Source: a virus
DNA length: 38,251 nt
IMG/VR virus record: IMGVR_UViG_3300033156_001165
Span: 1 to 38,251 of that record
Direction: 5' to 3' (one strand)
Position numbers and translations under genes: made by a program. Below the pieces are notes generated by a model. That model ran no database searches. It was not told the DNA's origin and worked only from the letters and a program-made list of their open reading frames with translations. The stretch's first letter is position 1; each line of letters begins with the position of its first letter. Of the stretch, positions 9,195 to 29,597 are shown one piece after another.

Positions 9195-9258
9195 AATCAA
9201 GCTCCTAAGCGAAGATTGCAGCCCAATCAAGCTCTTAAGCGGAGATTGCAACTCAATC
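9195..9258 (-). repeat. 30-bp repeat, locus A (two copies)
   Basis: Two adjacent 30-bp units (9195-9224 and 9225-9254) plus four bases of a third, directly after the stop of the 83-residue gene; the TGA stop itself is part of the unit. The same unit occurs at 11061-11120 and 14586-14661 in the same orientation. Each unit contains a GATTG/CAATC inverted pair and a GCTC..AAGC pair. Compared with locus C, T and A in the second pair have changed together to C and G. Confidence 0.8.
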
Positions 9259-9506: not shown

Positions 9507-11123
9507 CTAGAACCTCCCCATGCGAATCACACCACTGCCCGGCAAGTCGCGTGGCAGGTCACTGCGGCGCCGGACAACAGTAGTCGTAGAACCTGCCCAG
9601 CGGGTTACCTCGCGGCCCGCGTAAGCGGAAGCGTCTATCTGATCGGCAGCCTGGGCCGGATCACCTACCCAGGTGTAAAGCTCGTTCTCATAGGCCGGAA
9701 GCCAGGGCGCATCCTGGAGGAAGTAAACCTTGCCCTGTTCCATCCGGTTGATGAAGTCCGTGGCTCGTACCAGCTTGTCTCCGGTGTAGGGAGAAAGGGG
9801 ACGGATGGGCAAGCCCTCGCGGCGGAGGGTTTGAATGATGCCCAGGGAAACGGCGGCTGCCTCGATACCGATAAACTCCGGTTGCAGTCCCTTCTGGCAA
9901 AGCTCCTGGAAGCGTTGCTTGAACAGGCGGATGATGTCGGGGATTTCCTTCTGGAAACGGAGGATGTCGTAAAGCAACAGGTCATGGTCGGGGGTGACCA
10001 GCCAGGTAGCTAGTACCGTCCAGGATGGTTCCCGGCGCCAGAGCAACTTGTCTGCCGGACCTTCGCGGACGGAGGCAGCAGTGTCAGCAGTGCAGAATAC
10101 CCGGCAACGGGCCAGGGGCCAGGTACGGAGAACGGTGTTTCGCTGGTTGTCCTTGAGATAGACGGTCTTGTTGTCGATGGTGTAGTAGCGAGCCCAGGAG
10201 GGCTTGATGCGGCCCTCGTGAGTGATGGACCAGTCGCCAGAAAGGTACTGCTCCCGGGTCACCGGGTCCAGGTTGTGGAGTGAGAGAATGTAGGACTGCT
10301 GGTCGATGTAGGGATTGTCCTGGATATAGGCCGGAATGTAGGGACGGTCGGCATAAGAGCCCAGCCAGCGGGTTTGTCCTGTACGGGGATCGGTCACCTG
10401 CCGGATACCGAACCTCTCCTTGACCCAGCGATGGCCGATACCTCCGGGGTTGGTGGCACTACGCACACGCAAGGGGACACGGGCCAGGGCAGCACACTCG
10501 GCACAGGTGGGACAGCGGGGATGGGGCTTGTCAGCATGGTCTGGACAACGGGGACGGCGACAGCGGGAGAAGAGGAACAGGTAGTCCCACTCGTAGTGCT
10601 GGGTCAACTCGTCAATGGCAATGTACTGAAACTCGGCGGATTGGTAGCGGTACACGTCAAGGGCACTTTGCAAGTAGCCGAATTGCAACGTGGCTGGCCT
10701 GCCCCCGGTAGGAAAGTCCCAGCGGTGAAGCTGGGGTCGCCAAACGGCTGGGGTGCCGTCCAGCCAGTCATGGCTGCGGTCGATCAAGGCTCCGGGCTGG
10801 CTGAGGTCGGTAAAGGTTTTGCGAAGGATGAGGGCAGAGTAGCCAGGGACGTTGACGTATTGCAGGGCTCCCATCAGCAGAGCATCCGATTTCCCCCCAC
10901 CTGCCGCCCCACCGTAAAGGGCCTCGCGGTGGGTAAGGCAAAGGAAAGCCAGTTGGCGGGGAGTGGGCTTGTGAGGGATGTAGGGAGTCCAGGCAGGCAA
11001 CAGCTTGCGTTGCAGGTCAGGCTTGTCTTTCAGGACGCTGGCCAGGCGGTCTTTCCAGCCAGTCGAGTTCTTGAACGAAGACTGCAACCCAACCGAGTTC
11101 TCAAACGAAGACTGTGACTTCAT
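9507..11123 (-). CDS. terL: Terminase large subunit (packaging ATPase and nuclease)
   Basis: The motor that pumps DNA into the prohead and cuts it. ATPase domain: Walker A GGAAGGGKS (71-79, Lys78), Walker B YIAIDE (Asp171, Glu172), coupling motif SATNPGG (222-228). The RNase H-like nuclease domain has Asp347 (TADTA), Glu421 (GIEAAA) and Asp497 (QIDASAY). Between Walker B and the coupling motif is an unusual Cys-rich insert (Cys188, 193, 204, 207, 210, with His196), likely a small zinc site. ATG 11123 overlaps the small-subunit stop as TGATG. Residues 2-22 are encoded by two 30-bp repeat units (locus B), so this extension is probably acquired and unstructured. Length of 538 is normal for the family. 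Confidence 0.93.
   Translation of the reverse strand: MKSQSSFENSVGLQSSFKNSTGWKDRLASVLKDKPDLQRKLLPAWTPYIPHKPTPRQLAFLCLTHREALYGGAAGGGKSDALLMGALQYVNVPGYSALILRKTFTDLSQPGALIDRSHDWLDGTPAVWRPQLHRWDFPTGGRPATLQFGYLQSALDVYRYQSAEFQYIAIDELTQHYEWDYLFLFSRCRRPRCPDHADKPHPRCPTCAECAALARVPLRVRSATNPGGIGHRWVKERFGIRQVTDPRTGQTRWLGSYADRPYIPAYIQDNPYIDQQSYILSLHNLDPVTREQYLSGDWSITHEGRIKPSWARYYTIDNKTVYLKDNQRNTVLRTWPLARCRVFCTADTAASVREGPADKLLWRREPSWTVLATWLVTPDHDLLLYDILRFQKEIPDIIRLFKQRFQELCQKGLQPEFIGIEAAAVSLGIIQTLRREGLPIRPLSPYTGDKLVRATDFINRMEQGKVYFLQDAPWLPAYENELYTWVGDPAQAADQIDASAYAGREVTRWAGSTTTVVRRRSDLPRDLPGSGVIRMGRF
11061..11120 (-). repeat. 30-bp repeat, locus B (inside terminase 5' end)
   Basis: Two 30-bp units (11061-11090 and 11091-11120), diverged copies of those at loci A and C. 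They lie in frame immediately after the terminase ATG and encode two ten-residue repeats with the core QSSFKNS / QSSFENS. Together with locus A they flank the terminase and the 83-residue gene in direct orientation. Confidence 0.75.
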
Positions 11124-11671
11124 CAGCCATTCTCCGCTTTGCCATCACCGAGGACCAGTTTCAGGGCAGGGGCGGTACGGGGCTGACCACCCTCCTTTTC
11201 TGGGGAGAATTGTACCTGTTCCTGTTGGACGGCAATGCCTAGCTCGGCCAGCACGCCGTATGCCTGGGCCAGGTCCGTGGGTTGGGCGGGGCAGGGAGTA
11301 GTTTCCAGGAACCCTTCCAGGCGAACCTCTTGCGGGGCAGGAGTCCAATCGTCTCGGGCTGGACCATGGGTAAGCCAAAACTTGGGGTCGGTTTTGAATA
11401 CCTTCACCTCGGCTACCACCTGGGCCATGGCCCGGGCCTCCATCACGTCCCTGTAGAACCTCCGGTATTCCGGCCCCCTGTTCTTTTCACCCCATCTCAG
11501 CCAGCGGTAGAAGGTGTATTCGGAAATGCCGATGGTCCTGGAGGCTGCATGGGCACTGGCTCCTGCCCGGATAAATCTAAGAAACCTGTCGTAAAGCTCT
11601 TCGTTGGCCAGCAGGTTGACCAACCGGCGGCTGGCGTAGCGTTTTGTTTTGTGGGTGGCCATGGTTGTCAC
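11123..11671 (-). CDS. terS: Terminase small subunit (DNA-recognition)
   Basis: The 182-residue product has an N-terminal basic tail and a helix-turn-helix at about residues 38-62 (AHAASRTIGISEYTFYRWLRWGEK) like those of small terminase subunits, then a helical middle (MEARAMAQVVAEVKVF). The C-terminal third is rich in Pro, Gln and Glu. It recognises the packaging site and loads the large subunit. The start may be GTG 11671 or ATG 11662; neither has a good ribosome site. Its stop overlaps the large-subunit start, so the two are coupled. A hairpin terminator lies upstream at 11731-11768, suggesting that this pair has its own promoter. Confidence 0.8.
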   Translation of the reverse strand: MTTMATHKTKRYASRRLVNLLANEELYDRFLRFIRAGASAHAASRTIGISEYTFYRWLRWGEKNRGPEYRRFYRDVMEARAMAQVVAEVKVFKTDPKFWLTHGPARDDWTPAPQEVRLEGFLETTPCPAQPTDLAQAYGVLAELGIAVQQEQVQFSPEKEGGQPRTAPALKLVLGDGKAENG

Positions 11672-11796: not shown

Positions 11797-12141
11797 CTAT
11801 TCGTCCAGGCGTACCAGGTCCAGTCTCCAGCCCCGCGTGTCGGGGGCCAGGGTACAGTGAAACTCCCTGCATGTCCGGGGTCGGTGGTCGTAAATGGTGC
11901 AAAGCAGGGTTTCCCTGTCCAGCAACATGCAGTACCCGTCCGATCCCCGGCGCAACTCCCAGCAACGGCTTTCCGGGTTCCAGACCCGGTAGCGGGGGTC
12001 GATCTGTTGGGCTTCATCGTCCGTCAATTCCAGGCCACTCAGGGCACAGCAAGCAGCCCGGCACTGGCGGATGACCTTTCGGCAATCCTCCGTCTCGAAG
12101 CGGACGAACGGGCCGTCCGGTCCGGGAGCGAAGGTTACCAG
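11797..12141 (-). CDS. YkgJ-like Cys-cluster protein, start unclear
   Basis: Open frame with the cysteine pattern of the YkgJ family (putative zinc or iron-sulfur binding): CRKVIRQCRAACC, then YCMLLD, then LLCTIYDHRPRTCREFHC. The last part is the family hallmark. No ATG, GTG or TTG precedes the first Cys; the coordinates assume a CTG at 12141. A TTG at 12027 would lose the first Cys group. The frame is the same as that of the Lys/Arg-rich peptide at 12148-12243 and is separated from it by a single TGA. So it may be translated by readthrough of that stop, from a non-standard start, or the gene may be damaged. Function of the family is uncertain; metal binding is likely. Confidence 0.6.
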   Translation of the reverse strand: MVTFAPGPDGPFVRFETEDCRKVIRQCRAACCALSGLELTDDEAQQIDPRYRVWNPESRCWELRRGSDGYCMLLDRETLLCTIYDHRPRTCREFHCTLAPDTRGWRLDLVRLDE

Positions 12142-12147
12142 GTCTTT

Positions 12148-12243
12148 TCAATGACGCCCAGCAGCAGCCTTCCGGCGCCCGCCACGTCTGCCTCGTCTGG
12201 GAGCCTTCTTGGCCTTCTTAGCTTTCTTCTTCTTCTTGGCCAT
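12148..12243 (-). CDS. Lys/Arg-rich mini-protein (31 aa)
   Basis: ATG 12243 to TGA 12148, encoding 31 residues of which about 19 are Lys or Arg. The first half resembles a histone H1-type tail (Lys/Ala repeats) and the second half is Arg/Gly. The start lies inside the end of the ParB/radical SAM gene (26-base overlap), with GGAGG nearby on the same strand. Its TGA is followed directly, in frame, by the YkgJ-like frame. It may be an independent nucleic-acid-binding peptide or the N-terminal tail of the longer protein if the stop is read through. Confidence 0.5.
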   Translation of the reverse strand: MAKKKKKAKKAKKAPRRGRRGGRRKAAAGRH

Positions 12244-13837
12244 GATTCACCTCCACGGCTTCGCGGAATCTGTAAAGCCCGTCGCGGGGATCGTTCGCCA
12301 GGCGGAGACGGAAGAGTTGAAGCTCCTTTTCCGTTTCCGGCAGCTTTTCAATCCCCCGCAGAAACTCACAATGCAATCGCTTGACCTTACCCGTTCCACA
12401 CAGGTAACAAAACTGGTTCTGGATTCCTCGTGGCGGGTCCTCGGACACGATACCCAGGCTTTCCATCCGGCTGGTACAACAACCGTAAGGGTATTCTACC
12501 ATATCCCAGGTATGCCGTGTCAACAGGATTCCACAAGGACTGGCCTTTTTGTTGAAGTCAGCCGCGATGGTTTTCAACTCCTTCACCTGTTCCCGGACAA
12601 TTTCCGGGTCGAAGTCGTAGAACATGCCCCACAGTGACGGGTTGCGCCTGCCAAACTTGGCCAGGTAACGGTCAATGGACCAGTCCGGGCTGATCTTGCC
12701 GTCCATCCGGGGAGCGTAGTAATTGTCCTTGCCGATGGTGGAAACGGAGAACAGGTGACAAGTGATCCGTTCACCGTCAAACTTCTTGAGGGATTCGGCG
12801 AATCCCACTCGCCAGTGATCCAGGATCATGGGGGAGACGTGAACGCAACCCTCAATGCCGTGCTTCTTCCAGGCTTCCCGCAGGCACTTCAACCGGGCCG
12901 AAGGAGGTGGGGCTCCGGGTTCCAGCCGCTTGGCAACATCGTCGTCGAAGGTGCCGAAGCTGACCTTTACCAGGCATTGCTCCACGGGAAACTTGGTGTC
13001 CAGAACGGCCTGAACAATGGGCTCCGGGTTCTTGGTGAGGAAAAGGATGAACAACCCGGCACCGTGGGCCAGGCGAAGGGTTTCCCGCAGGGCTACCCCG
13101 TACTCCCGCATGGCCGGGTCCTGGGCGGCTCCCAGTTCCAGCGGGGCCTTGAGCAGCTTGGCCTTGTCCACCAGCTTTTTGAGGGAGGTGGAAGTGGCCG
13201 GACGGAAACGATTGCCCAGGCTGGTGCTGCCCCGTTGACCCAGGGTAGCACAGTAGGCACAGTTATGCCGACAGGGACCAACCCCCACGTCCAGAGCGTA
13301 GAACGGGCAGCAAACATTGGGGGCACGTTCCACTGGCTGGGAAACCGGGCTGCAAACCTCCCGGCGGTGGAAAGCCAGACCCTCGTCCTTTTCGGCCACG
13401 TCGGCCTCCAGCGAAATGCCACTGTCACCGGCAATGGTTTCCAGCAGGTCCAGGCCATCCTCTTCCAGTTCTTCCATCCCGGCCACGGCTGCCCGGGTAA
13501 GGTTTTCGAGAGCGTCGGTATCAGTCTCGGTGTACTCGGCGATGGGGTCAAAGGTGGCCAGGACCAGGCGTTCCTCTTCGGGGGTGAGCTTGACGTAAAG
13601 CACGGGAACGGTTTCCTCCCCTCGCTTCAACGCCTCTTCCACCCGCATGTGACCGTCCAACAGGTGGCCGGTAGTCACATTGACCACCACATCCTGAACC
13701 CAACCCACCTTGGAAAGCAGCCAGCCGATACTTCGCCGTTGCCAAACCGGGTGCTTTCGCCAGTTCTCCGGGTTGGGAACCAGTTTTTCAGGCGAGACTA
13801 GCTCGCGTCCTACGATGCGATTCTTCCACTTGCTCAT
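12218..13837 (-). CDS. ParB-like domain fused to radical SAM enzyme
   Basis: Start ATG 13837 overlaps the previous stop as ATGA and has GGAGG eight bases upstream. The 539-residue protein has two parts. Residues 10-90 are a ParB/Srx-type domain with GHLLDGHMRVEEAL (57-70), the nucleotide-binding signature, as found in phage DNA-modifying fusions. From about 175 there is a radical SAM domain with the cluster-binding motif Cys189-x3-Cys193-x2-Cys196, followed by LGAAQDP and FLTKNPEP segments resembling spore photoproduct lyase-like enzymes. A C-terminal cysteine group (Cys453, 454, 477, 480, 490) could hold an auxiliary cluster. The domain pairing suggests site-directed radical chemistry on DNA or a nucleotide, either base modification or repair. 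The substrate is unknown. Confidence 0.8.
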   Translation of the reverse strand: MSKWKNRIVGRELVSPEKLVPNPENWRKHPVWQRRSIGWLLSKVGWVQDVVVNVTTGHLLDGHMRVEEALKRGEETVPVLYVKLTPEEERLVLATFDPIAEYTETDTDALENLTRAAVAGMEELEEDGLDLLETIAGDSGISLEADVAEKDEGLAFHRREVCSPVSQPVERAPNVCCPFYALDVGVGPCRHNCAYCATLGQRGSTSLGNRFRPATSTSLKKLVDKAKLLKAPLELGAAQDPAMREYGVALRETLRLAHGAGLFILFLTKNPEPIVQAVLDTKFPVEQCLVKVSFGTFDDDVAKRLEPGAPPPSARLKCLREAWKKHGIEGCVHVSPMILDHWRVGFAESLKKFDGERITCHLFSVSTIGKDNYYAPRMDGKISPDWSIDRYLAKFGRRNPSLWGMFYDFDPEIVREQVKELKTIAADFNKKASPCGILLTRHTWDMVEYPYGCCTSRMESLGIVSEDPPRGIQNQFCYLCGTGKVKRLHCEFLRGIEKLPETEKELQLFRLRLANDPRDGLYRFREAVEVNHGQEEEES

Positions 13838-14571
13838 ACCGGGTTCCTCCACAATTCCTGGAAGAGATTATACAGCTTCACGGTGCGCCGTACAATTCTG
13901 GTTGGCGGGCAGACCAGGCGCATTACCCGGGTGAATCCCTGGTAAACATTCCAGGCACTTATGAAGTAGCGCTCGTTCCGAGCGGGTAGCAACCCCATTT
14001 CCTCTAGCTGCTTCATTGGCAGGTAAGCGTGCTGCTTGGGAATGATTCCCTGCATGATAGACTGGTGGACCAGCCAGTACGTATCGGCCACCGTCAGGTG
14101 ACTGGTATGCAACTGGTGGAAGAAGTCGCATTGCCGGGTGTGGAAGTCGGGCAGGGCCTCCGTGACTACTTGGCGCACGCGACTGGGCAGATCGGCCACG
14201 ATGCCGGTGGTGTGCTTGCGGGTAAGCACCCGCTCACCGATGAAGGCCAGGTTTTCGCAAACGAGAACCTTGTGGCCGAAGGCCAGGCCAGCGGCAAACT
14301 GCTTGCGGTGATTATTCCGCAAGCCAATGGTAAAATAGTAGTCCGCCAGGGATTCCTGTCGCAGGTGAAGCAGGCCGAAGTAGGAATGGCCGTCCTTGCC
14401 TACGACGGTATGTTCCTGGGAAACGATTTCCCAGGGTAGAGGGATGGACCGGCGCACCAGGTGCAGTAACCAGGTGTGTGGTATGGGCATCCAGGTACGG
14501 GTGCCCTGCGGGCAGGGCAATTCAGCCAGTTCGTCCTCGCTAACCGAGCGTGCGTTGCGGGTCATTAACAT
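13834..14571 (-). CDS. DUF932-like protein (phage/plasmid-like protein)
   Basis: 245 residues, ATG 14571 with AAAGGAGG nine bases upstream. The middle matches the DUF932 pattern: SYFGLLHLRQ near the start, then TIGLRNNHRKQFAAGLAFGHKVLVCENLAF, and a long helical C-terminal half. These proteins are common on phages and plasmids, often beside recombination or modification genes, and their activity is unknown. Its stop overlaps the ParB/radical SAM start, so the two are made together, which may mean a shared role. The 30-bp repeat array (locus C) sits between this gene and the one upstream and ends just before its ribosome site. Confidence 0.7.
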   Translation of the reverse strand: MLMTRNARSVSEDELAELPCPQGTRTWMPIPHTWLLHLVRRSIPLPWEIVSQEHTVVGKDGHSYFGLLHLRQESLADYYFTIGLRNNHRKQFAAGLAFGHKVLVCENLAFIGERVLTRKHTTGIVADLPSRVRQVVTEALPDFHTRQCDFFHQLHTSHLTVADTYWLVHQSIMQGIIPKQHAYLPMKQLEEMGLLPARNERYFISAWNVYQGFTRVMRLVCPPTRIVRRTVKLYNLFQELWRNPV

Positions 14572-14585
14572 GGCGTCCTCCTTTC

Positions 14586-14661
14586 AATCGAGTTCTTGAA
14601 CGAAGATTGCAACTCAATCGAGTTCTTGAACGAGGATTGCAACTCAATCAGGTTCTTGAAC
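14586..14661 (-). repeat. 30-bp repeat, locus C (2.5 copies)
   Basis: Units at 14586-14615 and 14616-14645 differ at one base; a third, partial unit covers 14646-14661. The consensus contains two small inverted pairs, GTTC..GAAC and GATTG..CAATC. The array starts at the stop of the 87-residue gene and ends at the ribosome site of the DUF932-like gene. Read leftward it is also open in one frame, giving a ten-residue repeat with the core LQSSFKNS. Confidence 0.85.
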
Positions 14662-26907: not shown

Positions 26908-27211
26908 GCGCAGGCTGGACCTGTTTGGATTTGCGGACGTGGTGGCCCTGGTGCCCGGCAGGCAGGGGACTACCTACCTGCAATTAACTACGGCTCCCCA
27001 CGGCAGGGAAAGGTTGCGGAAGGTGCTCGACTGCTCGAACGTGAAGCAAGTATTGCTGGCGGGAAACCACGTGGAGGTCTGGGAATGGCGGAAGGTACGC
27101 CGCAACGGACGCAGGGTATGGGATGCCCGGCGCTGGGTAGTCTCTCTGGAGAGAGGAAAGTTGCGGGCCGACGAAAGCTTTCCTTACAGCCGGTTGAAAC
27201 CGTCTAGCTAA
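26825..27211 (+). CDS. Resolvase/VRR-like endonuclease (restriction-fold)
   Basis: ATG 26825 with GGAGG eight bases upstream, 128 residues. It begins with a helix and Trp/Gly turn, then a core in which DLFGFADVVALVP and YLQLTT stand where PD-(D/E)XK nucleases place the first Asp and the E-x-K strand, followed by a His-x-Arg helix and NHVEVWEWRK. The Asp/Phe/Gly/Asp strand and VEVWEWRK strand are typical of phage Holliday-junction resolvase-like or VRR-type nucleases. The E-x-K lysine is not clear (Gln-Leu-Thr), so activity is uncertain. Its stop shares a palindrome with the stop of the convergent tail gene. It is transcribed with the putative regulator. Confidence 0.6.
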   Translation: MPTQNRVRELESLGWKVGVVERWIPQARRRLDLFGFADVVALVPGRQGTTYLQLTTAPHGRERLRKVLDCSNVKQVLLAGNHVEVWEWRKVRRNGRRVWDARRWVVSLERGKLRADESFPYSRLKPSS

Positions 27212-29414
27212 TCTCGGTCCAGGGCGGCAGTTGAATGGTCTTGGTAGTAACGGACTGGCTGGCAAAGTCCACGTCAGTGACTACTTCCAATTCCTGGTAC
27301 TCCTTGTTGTTTGGTTCCACGGCCATGATCCAGTATTTGGCATTGCGCACATCCCAGTGGCAGAATACCCGGTCGTCCTGGTGGCCGGAGAACCAGTAGC
27401 CGCCCCCTTGGGCAAGCGGGTTACCGGCATTTATCTGGTTCCCAAAATTAGACCCGAACACGTTGTAGCCATTGAGCACTCCTCCGGGCAAAACTTCAAC
27501 CGTTTGTCCCGCTTGGCTACGGGTCAAGTCAGCAGTCAACCGCCCCCAAAAGTCCCCAGGCACCTGCATGTCCAGGATTACCCAGCGGGCGGTAATGGGG
27601 TTCCAGTAGGCCCAACCGTAAGCCCCAGTGTCACCGCTGGCAGTGGCCATCTTGGAAAACTGCTGGCACTCGTCATAGACAATCACCTCTAACTCGTCTG
27701 GATCACCCACCACCTTGGCCTGGGCATGGGAACCGCAGTTCAGGGAGTCTGTCATCTCGAAGCGGATGATCCGTTGCTGGACAGTGCCCACGAACAACGG
27801 GCGTTTCACAAACTGGCCGGTGCCGGGATCAAGGGCGCTGATGGTGCCATGCAACCGGGCCAGGTGGTATTCGCCCGAGCCCCAGATGATAGGGCTGTCC
27901 ATAGGAATGTCGGCAAAGAAGAACCAGCAGTTGTCCCATAGGGCATACTCTGGGGAGTTGTAGATTTCCCCGTGGGAAGTTTCTCCGTAGGGACGGGCTA
28001 CCTTGCCCGGGAGAACGTAGGGAATGTCGTAGGCACCGGCGTTCTTGACCGGGCATTTCTCTGGTGCGGAAAGATAGACCAGGTGCAAGTTGCGGGGGAA
28101 AGCAAAGGGGACGGGTCGGCTCAACAAGGGTAACGGGCCGGGAGTGGGGAAAAGGGTCTGGGGTTCACGGCGGCTGGTGAAATTGCTTATTCGCAAGGGA
28201 ACCTTTTTGGCGGGTGGCTGAACGTCCGGTGGGGAAAGATTGCGAAGTTCAGTATAGAGGCCATGCCGTCCACCGTAATCAGCCCAGCGGACCTCCTCAA
28301 CCTCGCTTCCGGGCAAGACGGGGAACAGCCCCATCAAACGGAAGAGGAAATTGCGGCTGATGGACAACCGGGACGCCAGCCGGGAGGCCATTTGGGCAGC
28401 AAAAGCTTCGGCCTGGGTGTAGGTGTCGGGGGTGTGGTCCTCGTCCTCAGTTTTCACGTAAGGGTAGGTGCTGGCCACTTTCAGTGAGGTACCGGGGTCC
28501 CCGTACAGGTCCAGGTCCTTCCGAACAACCTGGGTCATGCCGAACAACATCCCAGGGGCAGTCATACCCCCAGTTACGTTCAAGTCGTACTCTAACCCGG
28601 CATGGCCGTAATAGGCAGGGAATTGCACGTCCAGGTAACGGGGCTTGTTCACCTTGCCCAGAGTGCCCTGGTAGCCGTAGAGAATCCTGGACTGGTTTTC
28701 GGTTAACCAGGAGAGCAGGTCCTTGCCATCAATGTACTGGTAGTTGGCCAGGTCAACGATGGTGAAGGTATCGGTAGTGGGGTCATACACCACGTCCCAG
28801 TTGAGAATTTGCAGCAAGCGGTTGAGATTATCTTCGGGGGTGGTTCCTTCACCTTCCCAGATGTTTTCTGGTGGAGTGCTGTAAGGGAAGCTGGGCGTAG
28901 CTGGAACGGGAACCCCGGTTGCCCAAACGCTCCAAACTCTCTGGAACAGGGTGGGCCAGTCCACCTGTAGGCTTCCGTCATGGTAGGGGACGCCCTCGTG
29001 AAATACCCGTTTGCGGATGTTGTAGTGTCCCGTGTCCCCCAGAGCACTGTTGCGGAAATGGAGCCGTCGGTCCACTACCTCCACCAGGCACGGGGAAGCA
29101 TCTCCCAGGCTGGATAGCCCGTTGCCCAGCAGTTCCATGTGACCGCTAAGGTAGAGGTAGGGAATGGTGATGGAATCATCACCGAAGCAGAAACGTACTT
29201 CGATGAAGCCGTCCGGGTCCAGGTGGCTAACGTGCTTTCTCTGGAGGAGAAACCACCCCCGACCCGGCTCTGTCCCTCGGGGGTTCCAGTAGCTATTGGC
29301 TCGGCGCTCCCATAGTGAGGTGTCCAGGCCCAGTCGCCGACATTCCCGCCACAGGGACAGGGGGTTCAAACAGGGATAGCCGTTAATGGTGATAGAAATG
29401 CTGTAGGAAGCCAT
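27204..29414 (-). CDS. Tail hub/baseplate-like protein (736 aa)
   Basis: ATG 29414 is used; longer in-frame starts lie inside the control repeats without a ribosome site. The first 330 residues are beta-rich with many Trp and Tyr and DVQFPAYYGHAGLEYDLNV, like the hub region of siphovirus tail-tip proteins. Residues 330-400 contain a helical FAAQMASRLASRLSISRNFLF segment and RWADYGGRHGLYTELRN, typical of tail late-control proteins. The C-terminal third has repeated Trp/Tyr/Gly-rich strands, perhaps for carbohydrate contact. Directly upstream lie an inverted repeat, direct repeats and a promoter (29472-29500), so this gene is separately controlled from the genes to its right. Likely part of the tail tip. 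Confidence 0.6.
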   Translation of the reverse strand: MASYSISITINGYPCLNPLSLWRECRRLGLDTSLWERRANSYWNPRGTEPGRGWFLLQRKHVSHLDPDGFIEVRFCFGDDSITIPYLYLSGHMELLGNGLSSLGDASPCLVEVVDRRLHFRNSALGDTGHYNIRKRVFHEGVPYHDGSLQVDWPTLFQRVWSVWATGVPVPATPSFPYSTPPENIWEGEGTTPEDNLNRLLQILNWDVVYDPTTDTFTIVDLANYQYIDGKDLLSWLTENQSRILYGYQGTLGKVNKPRYLDVQFPAYYGHAGLEYDLNVTGGMTAPGMLFGMTQVVRKDLDLYGDPGTSLKVASTYPYVKTEDEDHTPDTYTQAEAFAAQMASRLASRLSISRNFLFRLMGLFPVLPGSEVEEVRWADYGGRHGLYTELRNLSPPDVQPPAKKVPLRISNFTSRREPQTLFPTPGPLPLLSRPVPFAFPRNLHLVYLSAPEKCPVKNAGAYDIPYVLPGKVARPYGETSHGEIYNSPEYALWDNCWFFFADIPMDSPIIWGSGEYHLARLHGTISALDPGTGQFVKRPLFVGTVQQRIIRFEMTDSLNCGSHAQAKVVGDPDELEVIVYDECQQFSKMATASGDTGAYGWAYWNPITARWVILDMQVPGDFWGRLTADLTRSQAGQTVEVLPGGVLNGYNVFGSNFGNQINAGNPLAQGGGYWFSGHQDDRVFCHWDVRNAKYWIMAVEPNNKEYQELEVVTDVDFASQSVTTKTIQLPPWTEIS

Positions 29415-29442
29415 GCCGGAATATCCGTCAAAACATTTCCGG

Positions 29443-29548
29443 GTTTGAATATTCGTCATAATTTGGGGGGGATATATGGCGCGTTTACGTTTGATTTCAA
29501 CACGAACACACACATATATCCCCCCCAAACCGTGACGGATATTCAAAC
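29443..29548. repeat. 36-bp inverted repeat around a promoter
   Basis: Arms 29443-29478 and 29513-29548 match at 32 of 36 bases and are separated by 34 bases. Each arm ends in TTTGGGGGGGATATATG (oriented inward) and starts with GTTTGAATAT. The promoter at 29472-29500 lies across the left arm and loop. Read as RNA it would form a long hairpin; read as DNA it gives two symmetrical protein-binding sites. Confidence 0.85.
29472..29500 (-). promoter_or_regulatory. Leftward promoter of the tail hub gene
   Basis: TTGAAA (29495-29500), 17 bp and ATATAT (29472-29477; TATATC one base on is an alternative). The TCAACACGAA box (29497-29506, plus strand) is identical in sequence and offset to that at 26188-26197. 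A seven-G tract lies upstream (29520-29526). About 60 bases separate it from the ATG at 29414. Confidence 0.55.
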
Positions 29549-29597
29549 TCGTCAATTTCGTGACGTATAATCAAACCCGTCAATTTCGTGACGTATA
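29542..29597 (-). repeat. 28-bp direct repeats (iteron-like)
   Basis: Two head-to-tail 28-bp units (29570-29597 and 29542-29569), with 2 differences, each containing CGTCACGAAATTGACG, an interrupted palindrome. A third partial unit runs into the inverted-repeat arm, and further ATATnCGTCA boxes occur at 29419-29430 and 29447-29459. They may be operators, or binding sites of a replication initiator. Confidence 0.75.

Follow-up and report, generated by a model that had tools for sequence, protein, structure and literature searches.

We found that a viral contig of 38,251 nucleotides (IMG/VR record IMGVR_UViG_3300033156_001165, analyzed over its whole length and hereafter called the window) encodes a single protein in which a domain of the ParB-CTPase fold is joined to a radical SAM core resembling spore photoproduct lyase (SPL). 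This fusion of ParB and radical SAM is probably a phage enzyme that modifies DNA bases. Its gene lies beside the terminase genes, and the features discussed here are collected in Table 1.

Table 1. Features of the fusion gene and its surroundings in the window.
Feature	Position	Strand	Details
ParB-radical SAM fusion gene	12218..13837	-	ATG start 13837; frame extends 5' to GTG 13852
ParB-CTPase-fold domain	13424..13819	-	~residues 12-143; phrog_498, AF2 model, fold match
DGHMR	13643..13657	-	residues 66-70; D, G, H, R invariant
Radical SAM core, SPL/COG1533-like	12737..13306	-	~residues 183-372
CRHNCAYC, CxxxCxxC for 4Fe-4S/SAM	13250..13273	-	C194, C198, C201
C-terminal cysteines C440, C458-C459, C482-x2-C485-x9-C495	12368..12535	-	
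DUF932-like gene	13834..14571	-	upstream of fusion, ATGA-coupled
31-aa Lys/Arg-rich ORF (MAKKKKKAKKAKKAPRRGRRGGRRKAAAGRH)	12148..12243	-	overlaps 3' end of fusion gene
Terminase small subunit	11123..11671	-	phrog_4102, E 5e-9; packaging context
Terminase large subunit	9507..11123	-	phrog_979, E 8e-61

The reading frame is uninterrupted from the GTG to the stop at 12218 (544 aa), and residues are numbered from that GTG. Translation likely starts at the ATG, which forms an ATGA overlap with the TGA of the upstream gene and has GGAGG shortly 5' of it; the gene limits drawn in an earlier sequence-only reading agree with this start. That reading had also placed a ParB segment and a CxxxCxxC motif on one polypeptide, which profiles, AlphaFold models, and the single intact frame bore out. 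A near-twin contig (L001) carries the same open reading frame with 10 codon changes, of which 8 are synonymous and 2 conservative (P = 4e-4 against neutrality), a pattern that suggests purifying selection. An intact frame in the twin with mostly silent substitutions argues against a pseudogene or an assembly join. Scans for both domains in a single protein, across viral contigs and species-representative genomes, returned no second example, as might be expected of a chance or decaying fusion with no coherent function. However, the gene is intact in two contigs, and every core residue of both domains is retained, so that we consider this the most improbable of the alternatives.

The N-terminal part matched phage ParB and ParB-methyltransferase families, namely, phrog_498 (E = 5e-16, residues 17 to 142) and phrog_620 (E = 9e-11). 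An AlphaFold2 (AF2) model of the domain, built from its own alignment, reached a pLDDT of 88.8. Its best solved matches were ParB and Noc, with a Z score of 12.9 to ParB-CDP (6sdk) over 133 aligned residues. Despite this clear fold match, a profile of the ParB alignment found no PDB sequence at an E value of 0.1. The 38 ParB relatives were 42 to 53% identical to the window domain, and the latter retains each of the 25 residues that do not vary across the resulting 39-row alignment, among them D66, G67, H68, and R70. By analogy with a survey of ParB-CTPase folds (PMC12704722), DGHMR is probably the NTP-binding P-motif, with Arg70 as its conserved arginine on a ParB/Srx fold. We found no Pfam match to a helix-turn-helix or dimerization domain in the fusion protein, and the ParB model fits canonical ParB beyond the N-domain. 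The [DNST]PP[YFW] methyltransferase motif is absent from the tail that follows ParB. Each domain was modeled with its own alignment, since a mixed ParB and radical SAM alignment (A11) misaligned both and was discarded. In the full-length AF2 model, the ParB part had a pLDDT below 50, and domain orientation was therefore not taken from it.

Profile searches matched both of the domains that had been proposed, with SPL nearest to the core by sequence. The core matched phrog_13321 (E = 6e-12) and, weakly in the radical SAM region, NCBIfam PA0069/Rv2578c; its match to PF04055 (E = 3e-5) fell short of Pfam's cut-off. A five-protein radical SAM alignment (A1) diverged too far to be used for scanning a collection. 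An HMM built from 48 radical SAM relatives, with the window left out, scored the window at E = 8e-23. Across all 49 aligned sequences, C194, C198, C201, T273, E311, and P341 are invariant. The AF2 model of the core (pLDDT 70 to 96), which includes the CxxxCxxC motif, shows a partial TIM barrel; motif and barrel together are the marks of the radical SAM superfamily. The five C-terminal cysteines noted in the sequence-only reading are present (C458, C459, C482, C485, and C495) and possibly form a second cluster or a zinc site. Seven other phage relatives also have the CC motif (C458-C459).

Among solved structures, SPL came well ahead of all others by sequence profile (E = 6e-8), whereas by fold, viperin and SPL tied for the top match (Z 14 to 15; viperin, 14.8; SPL, 14). 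These matches would suit an SPL-type repair enzyme, recruited to DNA by ParB, whose task is to undo photoproducts or other base damage. However, Cys140 and Tyr98 of SPL (Geobacillus thermodenitrificans numbering) align with Ala242 and Ala202 of the fusion; the Cys140 position is marked by mutants in the aligned PDB entries. Cys140 is the hydrogen donor, and the roles of both residues are established for SPL. Their replacement makes it unlikely that the fusion repairs photoproducts in the way SPL does. The companions of ParB are also modification enzymes rather than repair genes. We rejected SPL-type repair as a candidate and regard it as very improbable. Of the two activities originally suggested, radical DNA modification and photoproduct repair, the second is undercut by the two replaced residues, whereas the first is favored by reciprocal neighborhood tests and by homology to phage M6, both given below. 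The fold match also admits a viperin-like enzyme of the nucleotide-pool or antiviral type, in which the ParB fold would bind an NTP and the radical SAM domain would modify that NTP; indeed, ParB-CTPase folds bind CTP, ATP, or GTP (PMC12704722). Yet the sequence profiles choose SPL/COG1533, with viperin missing from their PDB matches, and the relatives are located beside DNA-modifying enzymes and terminase. We judge a viperin-like role to be decidedly improbable.

To characterize the company that ParB keeps, we collected 123 distinct viral relatives of the window domain in two scans. Fusion of phage ParB domains to DNA methyltransferases, mentioned in the sequence-only reading, is common in this set: 59 of the 123 are fused to a region with the [DNST]PP[YFW] motif. 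The gene 3' of a standalone ParB (n = 58) encoded TAGT (11), Mom (10), a C5-methylase (3), Radical_SAM (3), or Tet/JBP (1). DNA-modifying genes thus occupied 28 of 58 downstream positions versus 2 of 46 upstream positions, which served as the control (P = 3e-7); this and other P values serve as guides, since related loci share ancestry. The same enzyme classes persisted once the ParB set was clustered at 75% identity, a step applied to that set only. At four loci (L029, L079, L083, and L138), the ParB relative is overlapped by a separate downstream radical SAM gene of another subfamily, the call for L083 being based on a weak Pfam match and the motif. Of the overlapping gene pairs at L138 (4540-5907), L029, and L083, at least those at L138 and L029 have a B12-type/Radical_SAM_N2-like N terminus. 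The metagenome that yielded the near-twin contig is also the source of L138.

An independent search used the radical SAM core alone as the query. Within the fetched flanks, a ParB gene was present at 47 of 71 loci of phage relatives versus 0 of 68 loci of cellular relatives. Where both flanks were long enough (n = 54), ParB lay downstream of the radical SAM gene in 25 cases and upstream in 4. These counts are likely low because the HMM used to detect ParB, derived from the subfamily to which the window domain belongs, overlooked at least one gene, the Pfam-weak ParB of L175. Some phage relatives have ParB as the next gene and, after it, TAGT, a DpdA-like gene, or ADDT (amino acid:DNA transferase) together with a P-loop-type ORF; terminase comes next in some of these. 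One locus (L177) holds radical SAM, ParB, the P-loop-type ORF, and ADDT together, and DpdA-like genes occur at L183 and other radical SAM loci. The ParB gene of L177 (4756-5343) is broken by an in-frame TAG beyond which homology resumes, and TAG may be reassigned in this phage. Searches that began from two different domains converge in supporting a DNA modification context, a reading that, as drawn from neighborhoods, is guilt by association.

A further link leads to hypermodification phages. The fusion core is a remote homolog of gp53 of Pseudomonas phage M6 (hhalign E = 5e-21), with about 24 to 25% identity to gp53 or to the Pam3 protein, and the terminal cysteines of gp53 (C426-x2-C429-x9-C439) have the same C-x2-C-x9-C spacing as C482, C485, and C495. 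The fusion therefore has both the homologous core and the C-terminal cysteine set of gp53-type proteins. In the M6 phage group, a hypermodified base takes the place of ~30% of thymidines (PMC11946847). The M6 gene is flanked by one annotated as threonine dehydratase and by that of the terminase small subunit, with a thymidylate synthase nearby, and the Pam3 radical SAM protein, which is 72% identical to gp53, adjoins two aGPT-Pplase genes. A tree placed the window near M6, Pam3, and a phage clade with moderate support and long branches, so this kinship is a lead, not proof. In the 38-kb contig, which is possibly incomplete, we detected no thymidylate synthase/hydroxymethylase (PF00303), ADDT (PF18724), TAGT, or Mom, and no pre-modified base is therefore evident.

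Many radical SAM enzymes have protein or RNA substrates, and the fusion could likewise act on such a target, for example, a DNA-binding protein of phage or host, with ParB a mere scaffold or regulator. The C-terminal cysteines look like the auxiliary-cluster regions of such enzymes, and a basic 31-aa ORF overlaps the end of the gene. However, the many unrelated chemistries next to ParB have DNA bases as their common substrate, and no conserved peptide partner was seen among the relatives. A protein or RNA substrate is thus unlikely. Given that ParB is the usual companion of DNA-modifying enzymes and that the core is related to those of hypermodification phages, radical alteration of bases in the phage's own DNA is the probable function. 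We propose that the ParB domain, with its NTP-binding arginine kept, would bind NTP and retain the enzyme on replicated phage DNA. A [4Fe-4S] cluster on C194, C198, and C201 would split S-adenosylmethionine to give a 5'-deoxyadenosyl radical, and this radical would take a hydrogen from a DNA base. The simplest target would be the C5 methyl or side chain of a pyrimidine, as modeled on phages with hypermodified thymidine. The C-terminal cysteines may carry a second cluster or a structural metal, and the modified bases would protect phage DNA against host nucleases ahead of packaging. A more specific version, which we hold only tentatively and consider doubtful, is that the fusion recruits itself via its NTP-binding ParB domain and radically modifies an ordinary rather than a pre-hydroxymethylated base, yielding an undescribed DNA modification.

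Other features of the window were noted alongside the fusion. The upstream DUF932-like gene had been suggested as an overlap-coupled partner. The ATGA coupling is real, but DUF932 relatives occurred at 0 of 123 ParB loci and at 1 of 76 radical SAM loci from phages, where the relative had itself served as a profile seed. This near-absence sets DUF932 outside any conserved system, and we rejected it as a system partner. Its product has no direct Pfam match (the PF06067 cut-off is not reached) and aligns pairwise (E = 2e-12) to a Microcoleus phage protein that itself matches PF06067 at E = 3.5e-5; judged from these alignments, it is a real but diverged DUF932 protein. The very basic product of the 31-aa ORF MAKKKKKAKKAKKAPRRGRRGGRRKAAAGRH is a possible DNA-binding peptide. 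A putative metal-binding protein with a CxxCxxCC motif (YkgJ-type; PF03692, E = 1e-7) is encoded at 11797-12027, in the interval that separates the fusion gene from the terminase small subunit. A repeat of ~30 bp resembling AATCGAGTTCTTGAACGAAGATTGCAACTCAATC forms three tandem pairs (9195-9258, 11061-11124, and 14586-14649) that border the terminase-large block and the block from terminase small subunit to DUF932, the middle pair being translated as the start of the large subunit. When viral contigs were scanned for the exact pattern, the repeat turned up only in the near twin; it could have a regulatory or cassette-boundary role. Farther along, a 60-nt inverted repeat (29419-29572; 80% complementary), whose right end bears a 28-nt direct repeat, surrounds the start of a 783-aa ORF (27204-29555).

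The phage partners named in the 2025 survey of ParB-CTPase fusions are methyltransferases, DUF3850, and DUF4417, and its main text does not mention radical SAM (PMC12704722). We found no fusion of ParB and radical SAM in one protein in the collections and literature searched, the latter mainly as titles and abstract openings, so an earlier mention is possible. The fusion unites ParB, a companion of varied phage DNA-modifying chemistries, with an SPL-like radical SAM core of hypermodification phages. What ParB does in DNA modification has been described as unknown (PMC12783734), and with both domains on one polypeptide, its role becomes directly testable. Our results also mark phage genes labeled "DNA repair photolyase" as likely to encode enzymes that modify bases.

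Each known system resembles the fusion in part. With SPL (PDB 4fhc and 4rh0), it has the fold and the radical SAM core in common, but it lacks Cys140 and Tyr98 and gains ParB and the C-terminal cysteine region. ParB-DNA methyltransferase fusions (phrog_498; N6_N4 Mtase, PMC12704722) are likewise from phages and carry the same ParB subfamily at the N terminus, whereas the C-terminal catalytic domain in the window is radical SAM, with CxxxCxxC and without a DPPY-type motif. ParB-domain proteins are frequent neighbors in the clusters of CmoX, a DNA cytosine carboxymethyltransferase (PMC12783734), although its catalytic chemistry is not radical SAM. The phage radical SAM proteins of phrog_13321 (such as L003 and L175-L183) share the homologous core and a CC-x-x-R/K motif and often have a separate ParB gene next downstream; in contrast to the fusion, they are unfused, are ~280 aa long, and miss the last cysteines. 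M6 gp53, from a Yuavirus with thymidine hypermodification, shares the SPL-superfamily core, C-x2-C-x9-C, and a position near the terminase small subunit (the next gene in M6). It differs in having no ParB domain and only ~24% identity, and its phage carries thymidylate-synthase-type and other hypermodification genes besides gp53.
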